This document shows positions 15,227-19,873 of a DNA stretch of 52,602 bases, in pieces. The notes beneath the pieces were generated by a model, which was not told the origin of the DNA, did no database searches, and was given only the letters and a program-made list of their open reading frames with translations. Each line of letters begins with the position of its first letter. The stretch's first letter is position 1. Origin of the DNA: Candidatus Zhuqueibacterota bacterium. GTDB lineage: Bacteria > Zhuqueibacterota > QNDG01 > JABMRT01. The position numbers and the translations under genes were made by a program. The stretch lies in assembly GCA_013202295.1 (NCBI GenBank), contig JABMRT010000244.1:1-52602 (forward strand), given 5' to 3'.

Positions 15227-18200
15227 TTATCTGAGCAGCACCATTTTCTTTGTGGATCTAAAACCATCCATCTCGATCTGATAAATGTAGACGCCGGAAG
15301 AGAGAGCTCTGCCATCCAGAATTGCGGAATGAGAACCTGCATCTTGAATTGTATCCACAAGGCGAGTCACTTCCTGTCCCAGGGAATTATAAACCGTGAG
15401 TCGGACATGGCTCTGACGCCCCACATCAAAATGAATCTGGGTCACAGGATTAAATGGATTCGGATAATTTGAGTACAATTTGAATCCATGCGTTTGGATA
15501 GAAGGTGAAACACCGGATTGTGGATTCTCATTGGCCAGCACACGAATACCTTGCCAGTCTGAAAGATAGATCGCATGATTCGCCACAGCCACATCCGAAG
15601 TGAAATGGCTCTCATAATAATAAGTCTGTGTTCCGGACCAGGCATCGAATCCATACAGATCACTTCGATTGATTGTATAGACATTTCCATTCACGATGAA
15701 TGGCCGATCCACTCGCAATGTATCAAACACATGTTGCCACAGAAGATCACCGGAAAGCCGGTTGAATGTAAGCAGTTCACCGGGCTGTTCATTATTCCCG
15801 ATGATGGACAAACAAACCACTGAATCTGAGACTGCCAGATTGTTTCCTGACCAGCTGATGAGCCCATTATTTTCAATATACGCGGACCAGCGTCTGGAAC
15901 CATCACCAATCCGGCGGGCCATGAGACTGTCTTCACGAAGTACATAGATATAATCGTCATCAATAGCGATACTGTTATCATGTCCCGGATTGGATACGCG
16001 CCATTTCGATTCACCATCGCGTTTATCCAGGCAAAGCACGGAGTCATCAATCACCCAGTATGTATTGCGGCCATCCACCGCCGGCGTTTTTTGCGAACTG
16101 AATCCGCTGTTTCGACTAGACCAAACCGTGGAACCGTCTTTCTGATCCAGACAATACAGACTGTCGTCGCAGATGTAGACATACTCACCTTCGAGAATGG
16201 GATGCTTCACGTGAAGCGATCCGAACGGCCGCATCCATCGGACTGCGCCGGTCCAGCGATCGAGCGCGTATAGACCATCCCCCCCCTGCCCACCACAAAG
16301 GACGAGTGAGTCATTCACGGCCGGCTGACAACTCAGTGCGCCCCCGCTGCCCGGAATCTCGAAGGACCAGAGTACGGAATCCTGATCGAGGTCATACCCG
16401 TAAATCGTAATCGGATCTCCCCCCACACCGGCAATGAGCGTGGATCCATGCACTGAAAAATCCACTTGATTGTCCCAAGGAGTAATGGTCGTATCATATT
16501 CGAAAGGCGGCGCCAGTTGATTCTCATCCTCAGCCCAGCGATTGCGTTTCGGCCCCCCATCGAGCATGGGCCAGCTTAGGTTCGTTGTAGTGTCTGGTTC
16601 AGACGCAAGACGGTAATCCATAAGCGGGAGCGCTGCGTCCCACAAGGCCTCCCGCGGAATTTCGCCTGCATTTCCATAATAGGTAGAATAAAGATTGCCC
16701 GGATCTTTAATCCAAAATGCCATACCGATCGTTTCACCGGGCAGGGCCTGAAGCGCACTCTCCTCCAGATCGATCGCGATCTCGTATTGTACATATCCAT
16801 TCGTTAAAGTAATAGCGGATTCCACTCCTTCCGCGCCAATCATGGCTCCCAATCCAATATTCGGGTAATCACCATAGAAGGGGGTGAAATACGCGCCCGA
16901 AGGAACGACATCAAACCGCCCCTCCCCGATGAATCCGCTCGGATCCCATGTATTATCATTGTCTTCATCAAAGAGCATTCCGAAAGCATTGGTATTGTTC
17001 AACGTGGTATCGTTCAAATCTTGAACACCAAAATACAATGTGTATAAATCATTTTTAACATGCGCAATGACCGGTTTTTCGTGATATTGATAACCAATCA
17101 CAAAGGCGGGGCAATCTGCCCACTCATCCTCTTCAACCAAGCCATCAATTGTTGGCTTGTTTTGGCTCCAGAAACCGCCCACATCAACCGGCCAGCTGCC
17201 CACTCTTGCGGATACAGTTTCTGATCGCTTTGTGATATCAGGATTGTCACAATCCATCTTATAATAATAAGTCTCACCCGGTGTCACATCGGTATCAATC
17301 CAATCATGCATGAGAGCCGGATAGGGACGATCTGCCGTGTTGACCGTGGCAACCAGATCAAAATATCCTGTCGGATCTGTTCCGCGATAAATGTAATAGG
17401 TCCGGTGCTCAGTATCACCATAAATCGGATTCCAGGCAATTGGAACATGATTATTGAACCAACTCCCGGCTTGCACATCCATGGGCATACGTGGTCCGAG
17501 ATACTCACCATAAATATCAAAGTCCCCATCGCGGTTATCCTGCCAGATACACACAGCGATGCCACGCCCGTCTGCGGCCACAGCAGGGAAGAGCTGACCT
17601 CCTGCATCATCTGTGACCAGAACCGGTAAATCGACCGGCTGGCCCTCTGTATCAAATTCACGCGCATACACATTCATATCCGTCTCATTCATGCTCCACA
17701 CAACCATGTAGCTGCTATCCGGTATGGCAGTAATATCCGGATAATAACGGGCGCCCCATACCTCGGTACTGTTGACAAAAAACTGATCTCTCACAATCCC
17801 GCCCTGTGCGTCAAAACATTTACCAAAAACCTGGGGAAATCCGCCATCGTACCCAAACATCCAAACAGTCATAAAAGATCCGTCAGGCTGCATGGCCACG
17901 TGCTGCCAGAGTATGCTTGCATCTTGTGAAGGATGAGAATTCACCTTAAATGGCGGTTCGACCTCCTGGCCGGTAGTGTCAAACAGTGCGGCATATAGAT
18001 TCATGTATCCTGATTCATCCTGCTGAAGCCAGGTGATTACGAAATCACCGTTATCAGCCATGGCCGCATCAGGCCAGAAACACAGCTCATCCGGATCAGA
18101 TACGTCGATGACATTAGAACCACATCGCACACCATTCGAAGCAAATAATTGGAAGGCCACTTCCGGCAGGCTGTCTGCTCTTGTATCTAGCCAGCATACC

Positions 18201-18673
18201 ACATAATCGCCCTGAGCATTCATCGCGATTTTCGGATACCGCTGCGACATCACACCCGCATCATCATTGACACGAAATGCCGCGTGCTTGGCCTGCCCGT
18301 TCGGCTCAAACATGCGCGCGTAAATATCATAATGCCCGTCCCGTTTGTCATCCCAGACAAACGTCATATGACCGAACTGGTTGATGGCCACATTCGCCGA
18401 TGCTTGCGTGGAATCTGATGCTGCATGGACTCGAAAATTAACACCCTGAGGAAGACCCGCCCGGTTGAAGAGCTGCGCGTAAATATTGGAATTTCCATTG
18501 CGATTATCTTCCCAGCACATCACACTCATGCCGGAAGCAGTCATGGCAATCGCGGGATACACCTGATTCTCTGTTCCGGAGTCATCATTGATCAGCTCGC
18601 CCTGGGCGTACAATCCAAATGTGCTTACCAGGATGAGGAGTATCATCATTTTTCGGATGCGCTGGATCACCAT
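15227..18673 (-). CDS. T9SS-sorted surface protein with propeller repeats and CBM9-like domain
   Basis: A 1148-aa secreted protein. Signal peptide MVIQRIRKMMILLILVSTFG. About 20-400: repeated blades with MCWEDNRNGNSNIYAQLF, FVWDDKRDGHYDIYARMF, CIWQDNRDGDFDIYGEYL, a propeller of short Asp-rich units. An FN3-like stretch follows, then a CBM9/DOMON-like domain (PTIDGLVEEDEWADCPAF onward, about 500-690). A PQQ-type propeller (VLWSFEIPGSG, LYALDRWTGAVRW, LYCLDQKDGSTVW) fills about 730-1050. The last 81 residues are a textbook type A sorting domain (SNYPNPFNPVTQI ... SSGVYIYQIEMDG ... KKMVLLR). The start is ATG at 18673 with a GAGGAGGAG site; an upstream TTG extension to 18703 is unsupported. Exact ligand unknown. 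Confidence 0.85.
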   Translation of the reverse strand: MVIQRIRKMMILLILVSTFGLYAQGELINDDSGTENQVYPAIAMTASGMSVMCWEDNRNGNSNIYAQLFNRAGLPQGVNFRVHAASDSTQASANVAINQFGHMTFVWDDKRDGHYDIYARMFEPNGQAKHAAFRVNDDAGVMSQRYPKIAMNAQGDYVVCWLDTRADSLPEVAFQLFASNGVRCGSNVIDVSDPDELCFWPDAAMADNGDFVITWLQQDESGYMNLYAALFDTTGQEVEPPFKVNSHPSQDASILWQHVAMQPDGSFMTVWMFGYDGGFPQVFGKCFDAQGGIVRDQFFVNSTEVWGARYYPDITAIPDSSYMVVWSMNETDMNVYAREFDTEGQPVDLPVLVTDDAGGQLFPAVAADGRGIAVCIWQDNRDGDFDIYGEYLGPRMPMDVQAGSWFNNHVPIAWNPIYGDTEHRTYYIYRGTDPTGYFDLVATVNTADRPYPALMHDWIDTDVTPGETYYYKMDCDNPDITKRSETVSARVGSWPVDVGGFWSQNKPTIDGLVEEDEWADCPAFVIGYQYHEKPVIAHVKNDLYTLYFGVQDLNDTTLNNTNAFGMLFDEDNDNTWDPSGFIGEGRFDVVPSGAYFTPFYGDYPNIGLGAMIGAEGVESAITLTNGYVQYEIAIDLEESALQALPGETIGMAFWIKDPGNLYSTYYGNAGEIPREALWDAALPLMDYRLASEPDTTTNLSWPMLDGGPKRNRWAEDENQLAPPFEYDTTITPWDNQVDFSVHGSTLIAGVGGDPITIYGYDLDQDSVLWSFEIPGSGGALSCQPAVNDSLVLCGGQGGDGLYALDRWTGAVRWMRPFGSLHVKHPILEGEYVYICDDSLYCLDQKDGSTVWSSRNSGFSSQKTPAVDGRNTYWVIDDSVLCLDKRDGESKWRVSNPGHDNSIAIDDDYIYVLREDSLMARRIGDGSRRWSAYIENNGLISWSGNNLAVSDSVVCLSIIGNNEQPGELLTFNRLSGDLLWQHVFDTLRVDRPFIVNGNVYTINRSDLYGFDAWSGTQTYYYESHFTSDVAVANHAIYLSDWQGIRVLANENPQSGVSPSIQTHGFKLYSNYPNPFNPVTQIHFDVGRQSHVRLTVYNSLGQEVTRLVDTIQDAGSHSAILDGRALSSGVYIYQIEMDGFRSTKKMVLLR

Positions 18674-18721
18674 AATCTCCTCCTCAACATAACATTCACT
18701 CAAGTACGATCAATTTTCTAT

Positions 18722-18747
18722 CGTTCCCGAACTCCTGTTTGGGAACG
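18722..18747. repeat. Left palindrome of the RAYT element
   Basis: CGTTCCCGAAC - TCCT - GTTTGGGAACG: an 11-bp stem with one G-U pair and a TCCT loop, 46 bp beyond the transposase stop codon. Confidence 0.85.
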
Positions 18748-18793
18748 CACTAAACCATGAAATTCCGTTTCATCCAACTACTATAAAATAGAG

Positions 18794-19330
18794 TCAACAA
18801 AGCGAACAATCAACCTTTATAATCGAATGATCATCATTCACATAATTTCGAGCCGAGCTGTAACGCCAATGTTCCTGTTCATCCACATATCCTCGTGCTA
18901 CAGGATTTTTGTGTATATACTCAATTTTCTGCGATAACATCTCCGCATTCTGAATCAACTCAGGATGCATCCCTTCCTGCCAAACCTGATATTGACTTTC
19001 CTTCTTATGCCGCTTTTTGAAAAAAGTCAACTGATTCAGAAGCCAAGATTTATTATCCGCTTCAAGTTGTTCAATGATCCGTTTTGCTGTATACTTTCTC
19101 AAGGATGCCATTGTGGATGATAAGTCTGGAGAGGATGCAATCAGATGAAAATGATTGTCCAGAATTACATAGGCATATAGTTTAAAGGCTTTACTATCGA
19201 TGCAGAACTTGAGAGTCTCAACAACAATATCAAAGTAAGGCTGACTCGTAAACACAGGAAGCCATTCACTAACCGTTGACGTGAGAAAATGAACACCGTC
19301 TTGCTCAATTATTTTGTATCGATCTCTCAT
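18794..19330 (-). CDS. REP-associated tyrosine transposase (RAYT, Y1/IS200-like)
   Basis: A 178-aa Y1 HUH nuclease. The HUH pair is H60/H62 in LDNHFHLIASS and the catalytic tyrosine is Y80 in RKYTAKRI. The C-terminal IEYIHKNPVARGYV...WRYSSARNY is the RAYT (TnpA-REP) signature. These single-copy enzymes cut and move REP-type hairpins rather than whole insertion sequences. The start chosen is ATG at 19330. The open frame runs up to 19396, but the added residues are encoded by the flanking palindrome, so that start is unlikely. No good ribosome site precedes 19330, in line with low expression of such genes. Confidence 0.9.
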   Translation of the reverse strand: MRDRYKIIEQDGVHFLTSTVSEWLPVFTSQPYFDIVVETLKFCIDSKAFKLYAYVILDNHFHLIASSPDLSSTMASLRKYTAKRIIEQLEADNKSWLLNQLTFFKKRHKKESQYQVWQEGMHPELIQNAEMLSQKIEYIHKNPVARGYVDEQEHWRYSSARNYVNDDHSIIKVDCSLC

Positions 19331-19368
19331 AGGGGATAATTTTAAAAACAAAGTTTTTATAACAATGA

Positions 19369-19394
19369 GGTTCCCAAACAGGAGTTTGGGAACC
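19369..19394. repeat. Right palindrome of the RAYT element
   Basis: GGTTCCCAAAC - AGGA - GTTTGGGAACC: perfect 11-bp arms with a 4-nt loop. Its loop is the complement of the left copy's loop, so the two copies are inverted with respect to each other. Confidence 0.88.
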
Positions 19395-19438
19395 ATATTC
19401 TAACGATGTCAACCATGGCTAATTGAGAGATCAGGAGA

Positions 19439-19813
19439 TTAATGCCCACACCCACCCGCATGACCACTACACGCATGTTCGACTGTCATTTCAGTTATTG
19501 TGCTGTTTTCAAATGCCGTAACATTATCCTGGACTGTGCCCTTTAAGGCCCGATAAACCTTAATTCCCATCTGGTTTAACTTGTTGATCGCACCCGCACC
19601 AATGCCCCCAACCACAAGTGCATCCACCATTTTTCCATCCAATGCCTGTAAAGGATTGCACATACCATGTTCATGGCCCAGATCTTGATTGTTAATGGTA
19701 TCAATTGATTTTGCTTCTGAATCAAATACAACAAAAAGAGGTGCCGAACCAAAATGGCCGAATACATCACTTTCTAATCCCTGATCTGATTCAACCGGAA
19801 AACAGATTTTCAT
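19439..19813 (-). CDS. NifX/NifB-type iron-molybdenum cluster-binding family protein
   Basis: A 124-aa protein of the dinitrogenase iron-molybdenum cofactor (NifX/VnfY/NifB C-terminal) superfamily, single domain, like the archaeal MTH1175 group. Family features: MKICFPVESDQGLESDVFGHFGSA shortened here as KICFP...VFGHFGSAP, then ALVVGGIGAGAINKL and GIKVYRA. The C-terminus HACSGHAGGCGH is a Cys/His metal-binding tail. No nitrogenase genes are near, so a role in general Fe-S or metal-cluster handling is likelier than nitrogen fixation. The start is ATG at 19813 with an AAGGAG site; the frame is open to 19840 but without support. It lies 60 bp after the ywbE-like gene. Confidence 0.88.
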   Translation of the reverse strand: MKICFPVESDQGLESDVFGHFGSAPLFVVFDSEAKSIDTINNQDLGHEHGMCNPLQALDGKMVDALVVGGIGAGAINKLNQMGIKVYRALKGTVQDNVTAFENSTITEMTVEHACSGHAGGCGH

Positions 19814-19873
19814 ATTGTATCTCCTTGATTTTTTGGTCATTCACAAACAATACCTGGAACGATATGGAAATTT

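Follow-up and report, generated by a model that had tools for sequence, protein, structure and literature searches.

The complete RAYT (TnpA-REP) gene and the two inverted 26-nt hairpins that flank it (Table 1) very probably constitute a REPtron, i.e., a single-copy RAYT gene with cognate 11-bp hairpins that carry a pyrimidine loop and a two-base foot and whose spread by the RAYT is proposed here. The locus lies in the window, the 52,602-nt stretch of DNA analysed, which corresponds to contig G000:C237 of a genome of 5.15 Mb in 303 contigs. As in known REPtrons, the gene is located between REP-like hairpins that have further copies elsewhere in the genome. We directly observed the anatomy of the locus, the conservation, co-variation and strand asymmetry of the hairpins, their additional genomic copies, and the similarity of the predicted RAYT fold to E. 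coli TnpA-REP. That the RAYT binds the hairpins and cuts them at a particular site, that the repeats move, and that the host gains from this, is inferred.

Anatomy of the locus and the RAYT protein

The sequence-only reading had described a complete Y1 RAYT enclosed by two 26-nt hairpins inverted to each other, which was confirmed by an intact open reading frame and by both hairpins at the expected positions. It had also pointed to a hairpin arm that overlaps the naive start of the gene; this overlap arises because the naive ATG consists of the AT foot and the first stem G of the upstream hairpin. The downstream hairpin reads CG-TTCCCGAAC-TCCT-GTTTGGGAA-CG on the plus strand and contains one G.T pair, while the upstream hairpin reads GG-TTCCCAAAC-TCCT-GTTTGGGAA-CC on the minus strand and is perfectly paired. 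As the two are inverted, their loops appear as TCCT and AGGA on the plus strand, and both feet point away from the gene. The hairpin 24-mer occurred twice in the window when up to three mismatches were allowed and was not found in any of 100 shuffles. Folded as single-stranded DNA, the tag strands reached -10.3 kcal/mol (z -6.1, downstream) and -12.4 kcal/mol (z -6.6, upstream). The tag strand of the downstream hairpin folds better than its complement (-8.2 kcal/mol), and the two strands of the upstream hairpin fold equally well (complement -12.6 kcal/mol). The neighbours of the unit (window positions 15227-18703 and 19439-19840) encode a protein with PQQ repeats and a Por secretion tail, and a Nitro_FeMo-Co protein; both are open frames, and the unit thus sits intergenically.

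Table 1. Coordinates of the RAYT gene, its two hairpins and associated sites in the window.
Feature	Position	Strand	Remarks
RAYT / TnpA-REP HuH-Y1 transposase gene	18794..19330	-	178 aa + stop; ORF, NCBIfam, homologue alignment, predicted fold
Likely start codon	19328..19330	-	Homologue matches start near M23; naive ATG at 19396-19394
Upstream REP-like hairpin	19369..19394	-	11 bp, loop TCCT; tag strand is minus
Unpaired 5' foot AT of upstream hairpin	19395..19396	-	T at -3
Downstream REP-like hairpin	18722..18747	+	11 bp including one G.T, loop TCCT; tag strand is plus
Unpaired 5' foot AT of downstream hairpin	18720..18721	+	Unpaired
CA 3' of downstream hairpin (+3/+4)	18748..18749	+	Predicted cleavage site C|A
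CA 3' of upstream hairpin (+4/+5)	19366..19367	-	Possible cleavage site

The naive ORF (19396-18794) encodes 200 aa. Near-full-length homologue matches begin at its residues 19-34, mostly 20-26 and thus around M23, which makes the ATG at 19330-19328 the likely start and 178 aa the likely length of the protein. With 98.6 bits, the RAYT exceeds the cut-off of 80 for NCBIfam REP_Tyr_transpos; against Pfam Y1_Tnp it reached 22.3, slightly under the cut-off of 23. It has the catalytic HuH motif H60/H62 (NHFH), W117-Q118 and tyrosine Y138 within YIHKNP; an alignment of 30 sequences shows no variation at H60, H62, W117, H122, P123 and Y138, among other columns. All 30 aligned homologues matched REP_Tyr_transpos at E <= 0.001, four of which also matched transpos_IS200. 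Foldseek with an AlphaFold model (mean pLDDT 92.3) ranked E. coli TnpA-REP (4er8) first, and VIA-align of the model gave Z 14.8, rmsd 3.1 and 140 aligned residues for 4er8, followed by IS608 with Z 11.0. The protein is thus predicted to adopt a fold that resembles E. coli TnpA-REP and, with its HuH motif and a catalytic tyrosine in Y---NP, has the sequence features of RAYT / TnpA-REP class 2 (PMC6006769), as a member of which it would cut and rejoin single-stranded REP DNA. In a sequence alignment with 4er8, W94/Q95 are kept as W117/Q118 and the HuH-to-W spacing is 22 residues longer (55 vs 33). Residues E100, H101 and R104 of the E. coli enzyme, named as GTAG-contacting (PMC6006769), align to P123, E124 and Q127.

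The predicted Y1 HuH fold and a hairpin at each side of the gene would also suit an ordinary IS200/IS605-type insertion sequence that has the hairpins as its ends and moves as a whole. We regard this as very unlikely, given that the gene is present in a single genome copy with nearest paralogues just 39-45% identical, that YIHKNP stands in place of Y---Q, and that NCBIfam yielded REP_Tyr_transpos, with transpos_IS200 absent among the matches of the window RAYT up to E = 1. Moreover, the two hairpins are on opposite strands, whereas IS200/IS605 elements have both ends processed on the same strand; the process is described as strand-specific in PMC8266576.

A defence system was rejected as no PADLOC match was obtained up to E = 0.1, a known RNA family as the only Rfam match in 18500-19700 was at chance level (E 0.86), and a phage origin as 50,697 phage records contained no tblastn match and none was confirmed in viral contigs. 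Six viral contigs (L095-L100) carry exact CTCGTTCCCACGCTC-NN-GCGTGGGAATGCA hairpins. The region 18700-19410 had no blastn match among plasmids.

Hairpin consensus, foot and folding strand

From loci L001-L094 we collected 85 hairpins with at least 8/9 Watson-Crick pairs. The only selection criteria for these hairpins were TTCC/GGAA arms, pairing and a pyrimidine loop, and they were oriented by the loop alone. For the hairpins of L093 and L094, which were fetched by a pattern with CG before TTCC, positions -2/-1 are biased and positions -3/-4 are not. Position -3 is T in 84 of the 85, and position -4 is C in 75 and A in eight. The 5' feet are CTCG (n = 45), CTGG (n = 13), CTTG (n = 7), CTCA (n = 7), ATCG (n = 4), ATGG (n = 3) and six others (n = 1 each); neither a GT[AG]G foot nor a CGTC tag was found among the 85. 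Conservation is lower in the 3' flank (0.68 bit at most), where the consensus contains no T tract. As a control, the hairpins of a more distant Thiohalophilus RAYT are preceded by standard GTAG.

Positions -2/+2 are paired in 74 of the 85 hairpins (shuffle mean 42.8, maximum 57) and in 48 of 59 collapsed combinations (shuffle mean 26.1, maximum 37). The foot varies together with its 3' partners: CTCG is found with YG (42/45), CTGG with YC (11/13) and CTTG with CA (6/7); in hairpins with ATCG or ATGG feet, -2/+2 are paired in only three of seven. Positions -1/+1 are paired in 82/85 when G.T is counted, and -3 and -4 are unpaired. The stem is thus 11 bp long and leaves a free foot, which is AT in the window lineage and CT in most relatives. 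The 24 internal mismatches on the tag strand comprise 20 G.T and one A.C, and a G at -1 that does not face C faces T in 31 of 32 cases. The complementary strand would carry A.C mismatches instead, and the tag strand is therefore probably the one that folds. In a pattern-based set (150 of 209 matches listed), the G.T excess is a trend (14 vs 5, p = 0.06) and inner arms with at least 4/5 pairs are present in 84 of 108 (shuffle mean 29.7, maximum 44).

The strand-specific G.T excess is also compatible with G.U pairs in RNA, and the upstream hairpin is terminator-like on the strand of the gene (one found, 0.7 expected), as might be expected if the hairpins served as signals in RNA, be it as terminator, attenuator or mRNA stabiliser, and bordered the gene by chance. 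Such signals would, however, leave the lack of a T tract 3' of the hairpins unaccounted for, and the conserved foot T at -3 lies outside the stem and requires another reader. As the hairpins moreover follow one RAYT clade across phyla and the doublets in the own genome face each other (see below), we give this explanation very little credence.

Copies in the genome and association with related RAYTs

At E <= 1, the genome yields nine other Y1 matches, including the three RAYT paralogues of 39-45% identity. Paralogues on contigs C119 and C120 have related hairpins with different stems and CT feet, and no related hairpin was found near the paralogue on C193. Other Y1 genes of this genome (L009, L010, L011, L013, L014) are accompanied by quite different palindromes with ATCCTCCCGAAGGCT arms or AAACCTGCCAGGTTT arms, and L013 has a GTAG...CTAC double-foot hairpin. 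The pattern TTCCY-N4-TC-N(5,6)-RGGAA matched 30 times in the genome, vs three times for the reversed control, and a small number of these matches do not form hairpins. Four window-type hairpins were recovered as solitary copies outside the window (G000:C263, C290, C227 and C52), in a genome search for solitary and paired copies such as the sequence-only reading had proposed; paired window-type copies were absent from the genome stretches read, where doublets belong to the other two (sister) types. These doublets are inverted and REPIN-like. Of 11 adjacent hairpin pairs in the genome, 10 have their feet outwards, an arrangement also seen around the window gene; the two hairpins of a pair are 10-15, 25-26 or 53-58 nt apart. 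A stretch on G000:C82 (L079 977-1354) contains two identical inverted doublets, separated by 322 nt, that seem to stem from a local duplication. Of 27 hairpins in the genome, 18 fall outside ORFs that encode 100 aa or more, though ORFs make up 79% of those loci.

Position -4 is A or T in all six window-type hairpins of the genome, and C in none of them vs 30 of 31 others, a split that was drawn after viewing the data and that counts L079 461 (AT foot, similar stem, 3-nt loop) as other. The base at -4 thus follows hairpin type and perhaps the RAYT, in which case RAYTs that recognise different feet would coexist in one genome, perhaps with cuts at C|A. Hairpins of the wider kind, which are scattered through this and other genomes and have a recognition mark other than the standard one, look like a distinct family of tiny mobile DNA that has been little described.

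A single gene copy and few window-type hairpins are also what a domesticated RAYT with a host role would leave, its hairpins being passive relics or regulatory sites that are immobile now, and TnpA-REP is discussed as domesticated in PMC8266576. Yet the gene is intact and retains its catalytic residues, and the hairpins are near-perfect; the solitary copy on G000:C52 differs by a compensatory pair change (TTCCTAAAC/GTTTAGGAA, C-G to T-A). The hairpin structure therefore still seems to be selected, and we consider domestication unlikely, if less so than the insertion sequence or the RNA signals.

Relatives were drawn from 82 genomes of the window's phylum, 25 of which had a RAYT match at E <= 1e-20, and from an Ignavibacteria MAG, a KSB1 MAG, two Armatimonadota MAGs and Thiohalophilus; plasmid relatives were those of Salinivibrio (51%) and of Bernardetia and Persicobacter (31-38%). 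Hairpins were located within 400 nt of the gene at 25 of 31 related (near-clade) RAYT loci, one of 13 outer loci and none of five other Y1 loci, repeat fetches of the same DNA being excluded. Three of the six related RAYTs with no such hairpin nearby have less than 400 nt on one side. Hairpin density was 49 in 22,650 nt near genes vs four in 59,457 nt farther away; the counts take related hairpins as independent. The nearest flanking hairpins have their feet outwards in only 27 of 40 cases. Fragments (L012, L029, L030, L033, L035, L041, L042) were left out of the proximity count, among them the broken RAYT copy L030, which has hairpins on both sides. L058, which has one stop, was counted for proximity, and its feet-outward arrangement is identical on either strand.

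This hairpin type is found in the window's phylum, the Ignavibacteria MAG, Armatimonadota and on the Salinivibrio plasmid. In a protein tree of 46 rows, the 22 hairpin-labelled rows fall within one clade of 28 (support 88/94) in which phyla are mixed, which suggests horizontal spread. The hairpin label changes six times on the tree vs 15.7 times when shuffled; 'none' was assigned to L027 (outside the clade) despite one TTCC-armed hairpin and likewise to L017 and L054, which have weak ones. Backbone support of the tree is weak, branches outside the clade of interest are long, and L021, L024 and L058 are absent. In L018 and L029, CCGTCCC-type stems replace TTCC, which indicates that the arm sequence drifts between lineages. 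L026 and L027, from an outer RAYT branch with an MPTHxH motif, have other stems with an ATCG foot, inverted around the gene. On the Salinivibrio replicon, 12 of 13 pattern matches are hairpins and the control had no match. Besides RAYT-linked copies, the Salinivibrio kushneri plasmid (L071 / NZ_CP114587.1 9313-9530) carries five tandem hairpins with a 49-nt period. A Klebsiella, a Citrobacter and a Salmonella plasmid each carry a 28-nt near match (93%) to a Salinivibrio hairpin, and the 34-nt Salinivibrio hairpin had no match in E. coli genomes.

Across the 82 genomes of the phylum, the pattern with a CG prefix matched 209 times, vs 14 times for the control. RAYT-bearing genomes had a mean of 5.4 matches and others 1.3 (p = 1e-4), with no such difference for the control. 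Matches were present in 24 of 57 genomes with no RAYT match at E <= 1e-20 and absent in six of the 25 RAYT-bearing genomes, discrepancies that may stem from gene loss, incomplete genomes or chance matches; the matches include some that do not form hairpins. The sequence-only reading had named a lack of both further copies and conservation near orthologous transposases as evidence against a REPtron-like unit. Instead, the RAYT between inverted hairpins is accompanied by the four solitary copies and by similar hairpins at homologous genes. The placement of the unit outside the well-studied proteobacteria in that reading was borne out, with close relatives that have the same hairpins also on a gammaproteobacterial plasmid.

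Proposed working and comparison with known systems

We propose that the tag-bearing strand of the hairpins would fold in single-stranded DNA, e.g., the lagging-strand template, and that the RAYT would bind hairpin and foot. The HuH motif and Y138 could then cut beside the hairpin, at a predicted C|A, and rejoin the ends. Hairpins would spread singly or as inverted feet-outward pairs, the arrangement that also encloses the gene. The predicted site derives from the published guide rule in which T2G4 selects C|A (PMC8266576), applied to a CTCG or ATCG foot. CA is present at +3/+4 in 27 of the 85 hairpins, including the downstream copy of the window; because GC and AT are enriched there too, through a TGCAT shared by one subfamily, C|A stays a prediction.

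Detailed studies of REPs and RAYTs have dealt with GTAG types, for the most part gammaproteobacterial, and non-GTAG classes have been left as 'atypical'. For one non-GTAG class, an explicit hairpin, foot and strand are now available, together with natural enzyme/foot pairs within one genome. These would allow tests of the foot-reading residues, of cut-site choice and of whether repeats are spread across phyla by these single-strand nucleases. Searches with sequence strings in one literature library returned no paper that seemed relevant from its title and the start of its abstract among the matches listed.

Like TIRYTs and TIRtrons (PMC3733652; subclass 2.1 in PMC6006769), the locus has a Y1 transposase between possibly self-complementary inverted repeats. 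A TIRtron was nevertheless rejected because the hairpins have no GGGGWSAS motif and no HTH family, which TIRYTs would show as a C-terminal domain, was found among Pfam and NCBIfam matches of the 178-aa protein up to E = 1. Di Nocera et al. (2013, PMC3733652) assign most REPs to a GTAG or a CGTC type. CGTC REPs are likewise short tagged palindromes that occur across phyla, for which these authors describe finding no dedicated transposase; window-class repeats differ in their tag and are accompanied by one RAYT clade.

GTAG REPs with RAYT groups 2 and 3 (E. coli, Stenotrophomonas, Marinomonas; PMC8266576, PMC2817692) share with the locus an HuH-Y1 enzyme, a gene between inverted palindromes, inverted pairs (BIME/REPIN), a foot 5' of the hairpin and strand-specific recognition, the last of which we infer for the window class. 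Unlike in GTAG REPs, the foot of the window class is CT or AT and the next two bases are mostly paired, and the positions of E100/H101/R104 in the GTAG-reading E. coli TnpA-REP hold P123/E124/Q127. The hairpin type of its own that the sequence-only reading had claimed is thus distinct from the published GTAG and CGTC types; it is not unique to the locus and is common to most of one RAYT clade. We think it reasonably likely that this class, with its unpaired CT/AT foot, co-varying two-pair base, TTCC/GGAA arms and pyrimidine loop, represents a third superfamily of tagged REPs besides the GTAG and CGTC ones, driven by a RAYT clade of its own that has spread horizontally among several phyla.

The nearest published kind, compared here by its description, is TnpA-REP/RAYT subclass 2.6 (Quentin et al. 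2018, PMC6006769), which that paper equates with Bertels group 5. It is described there as having a median length of 179 aa and 'atypical secondary structures' without GT[AG]G, as showing weaker secondary structure and as occurring mostly in Bacteroidetes. Shared with this description are the length of 178 aa, NH-x-H, WQ, YIHxNP, serines after the core, extra residues before WQ relative to E. coli TnpA-REP, and atypical hairpins without GT[AG]G that have copies elsewhere in the genome. In its motifs and spacing (NHFH, WQ, YIHKNP, 55 residues from HuH to W), the window protein comes near to the published description of the subclass but does not coincide with it fully. The window class differs from subclass 2.6 as described in its near-perfect 11-bp stems with an explicit foot and consensus, and, set against a Bacteroidetes tendency that is not a strict criterion, in that it extends to the window's phylum, Armatimonadota and Gammaproteobacteria.
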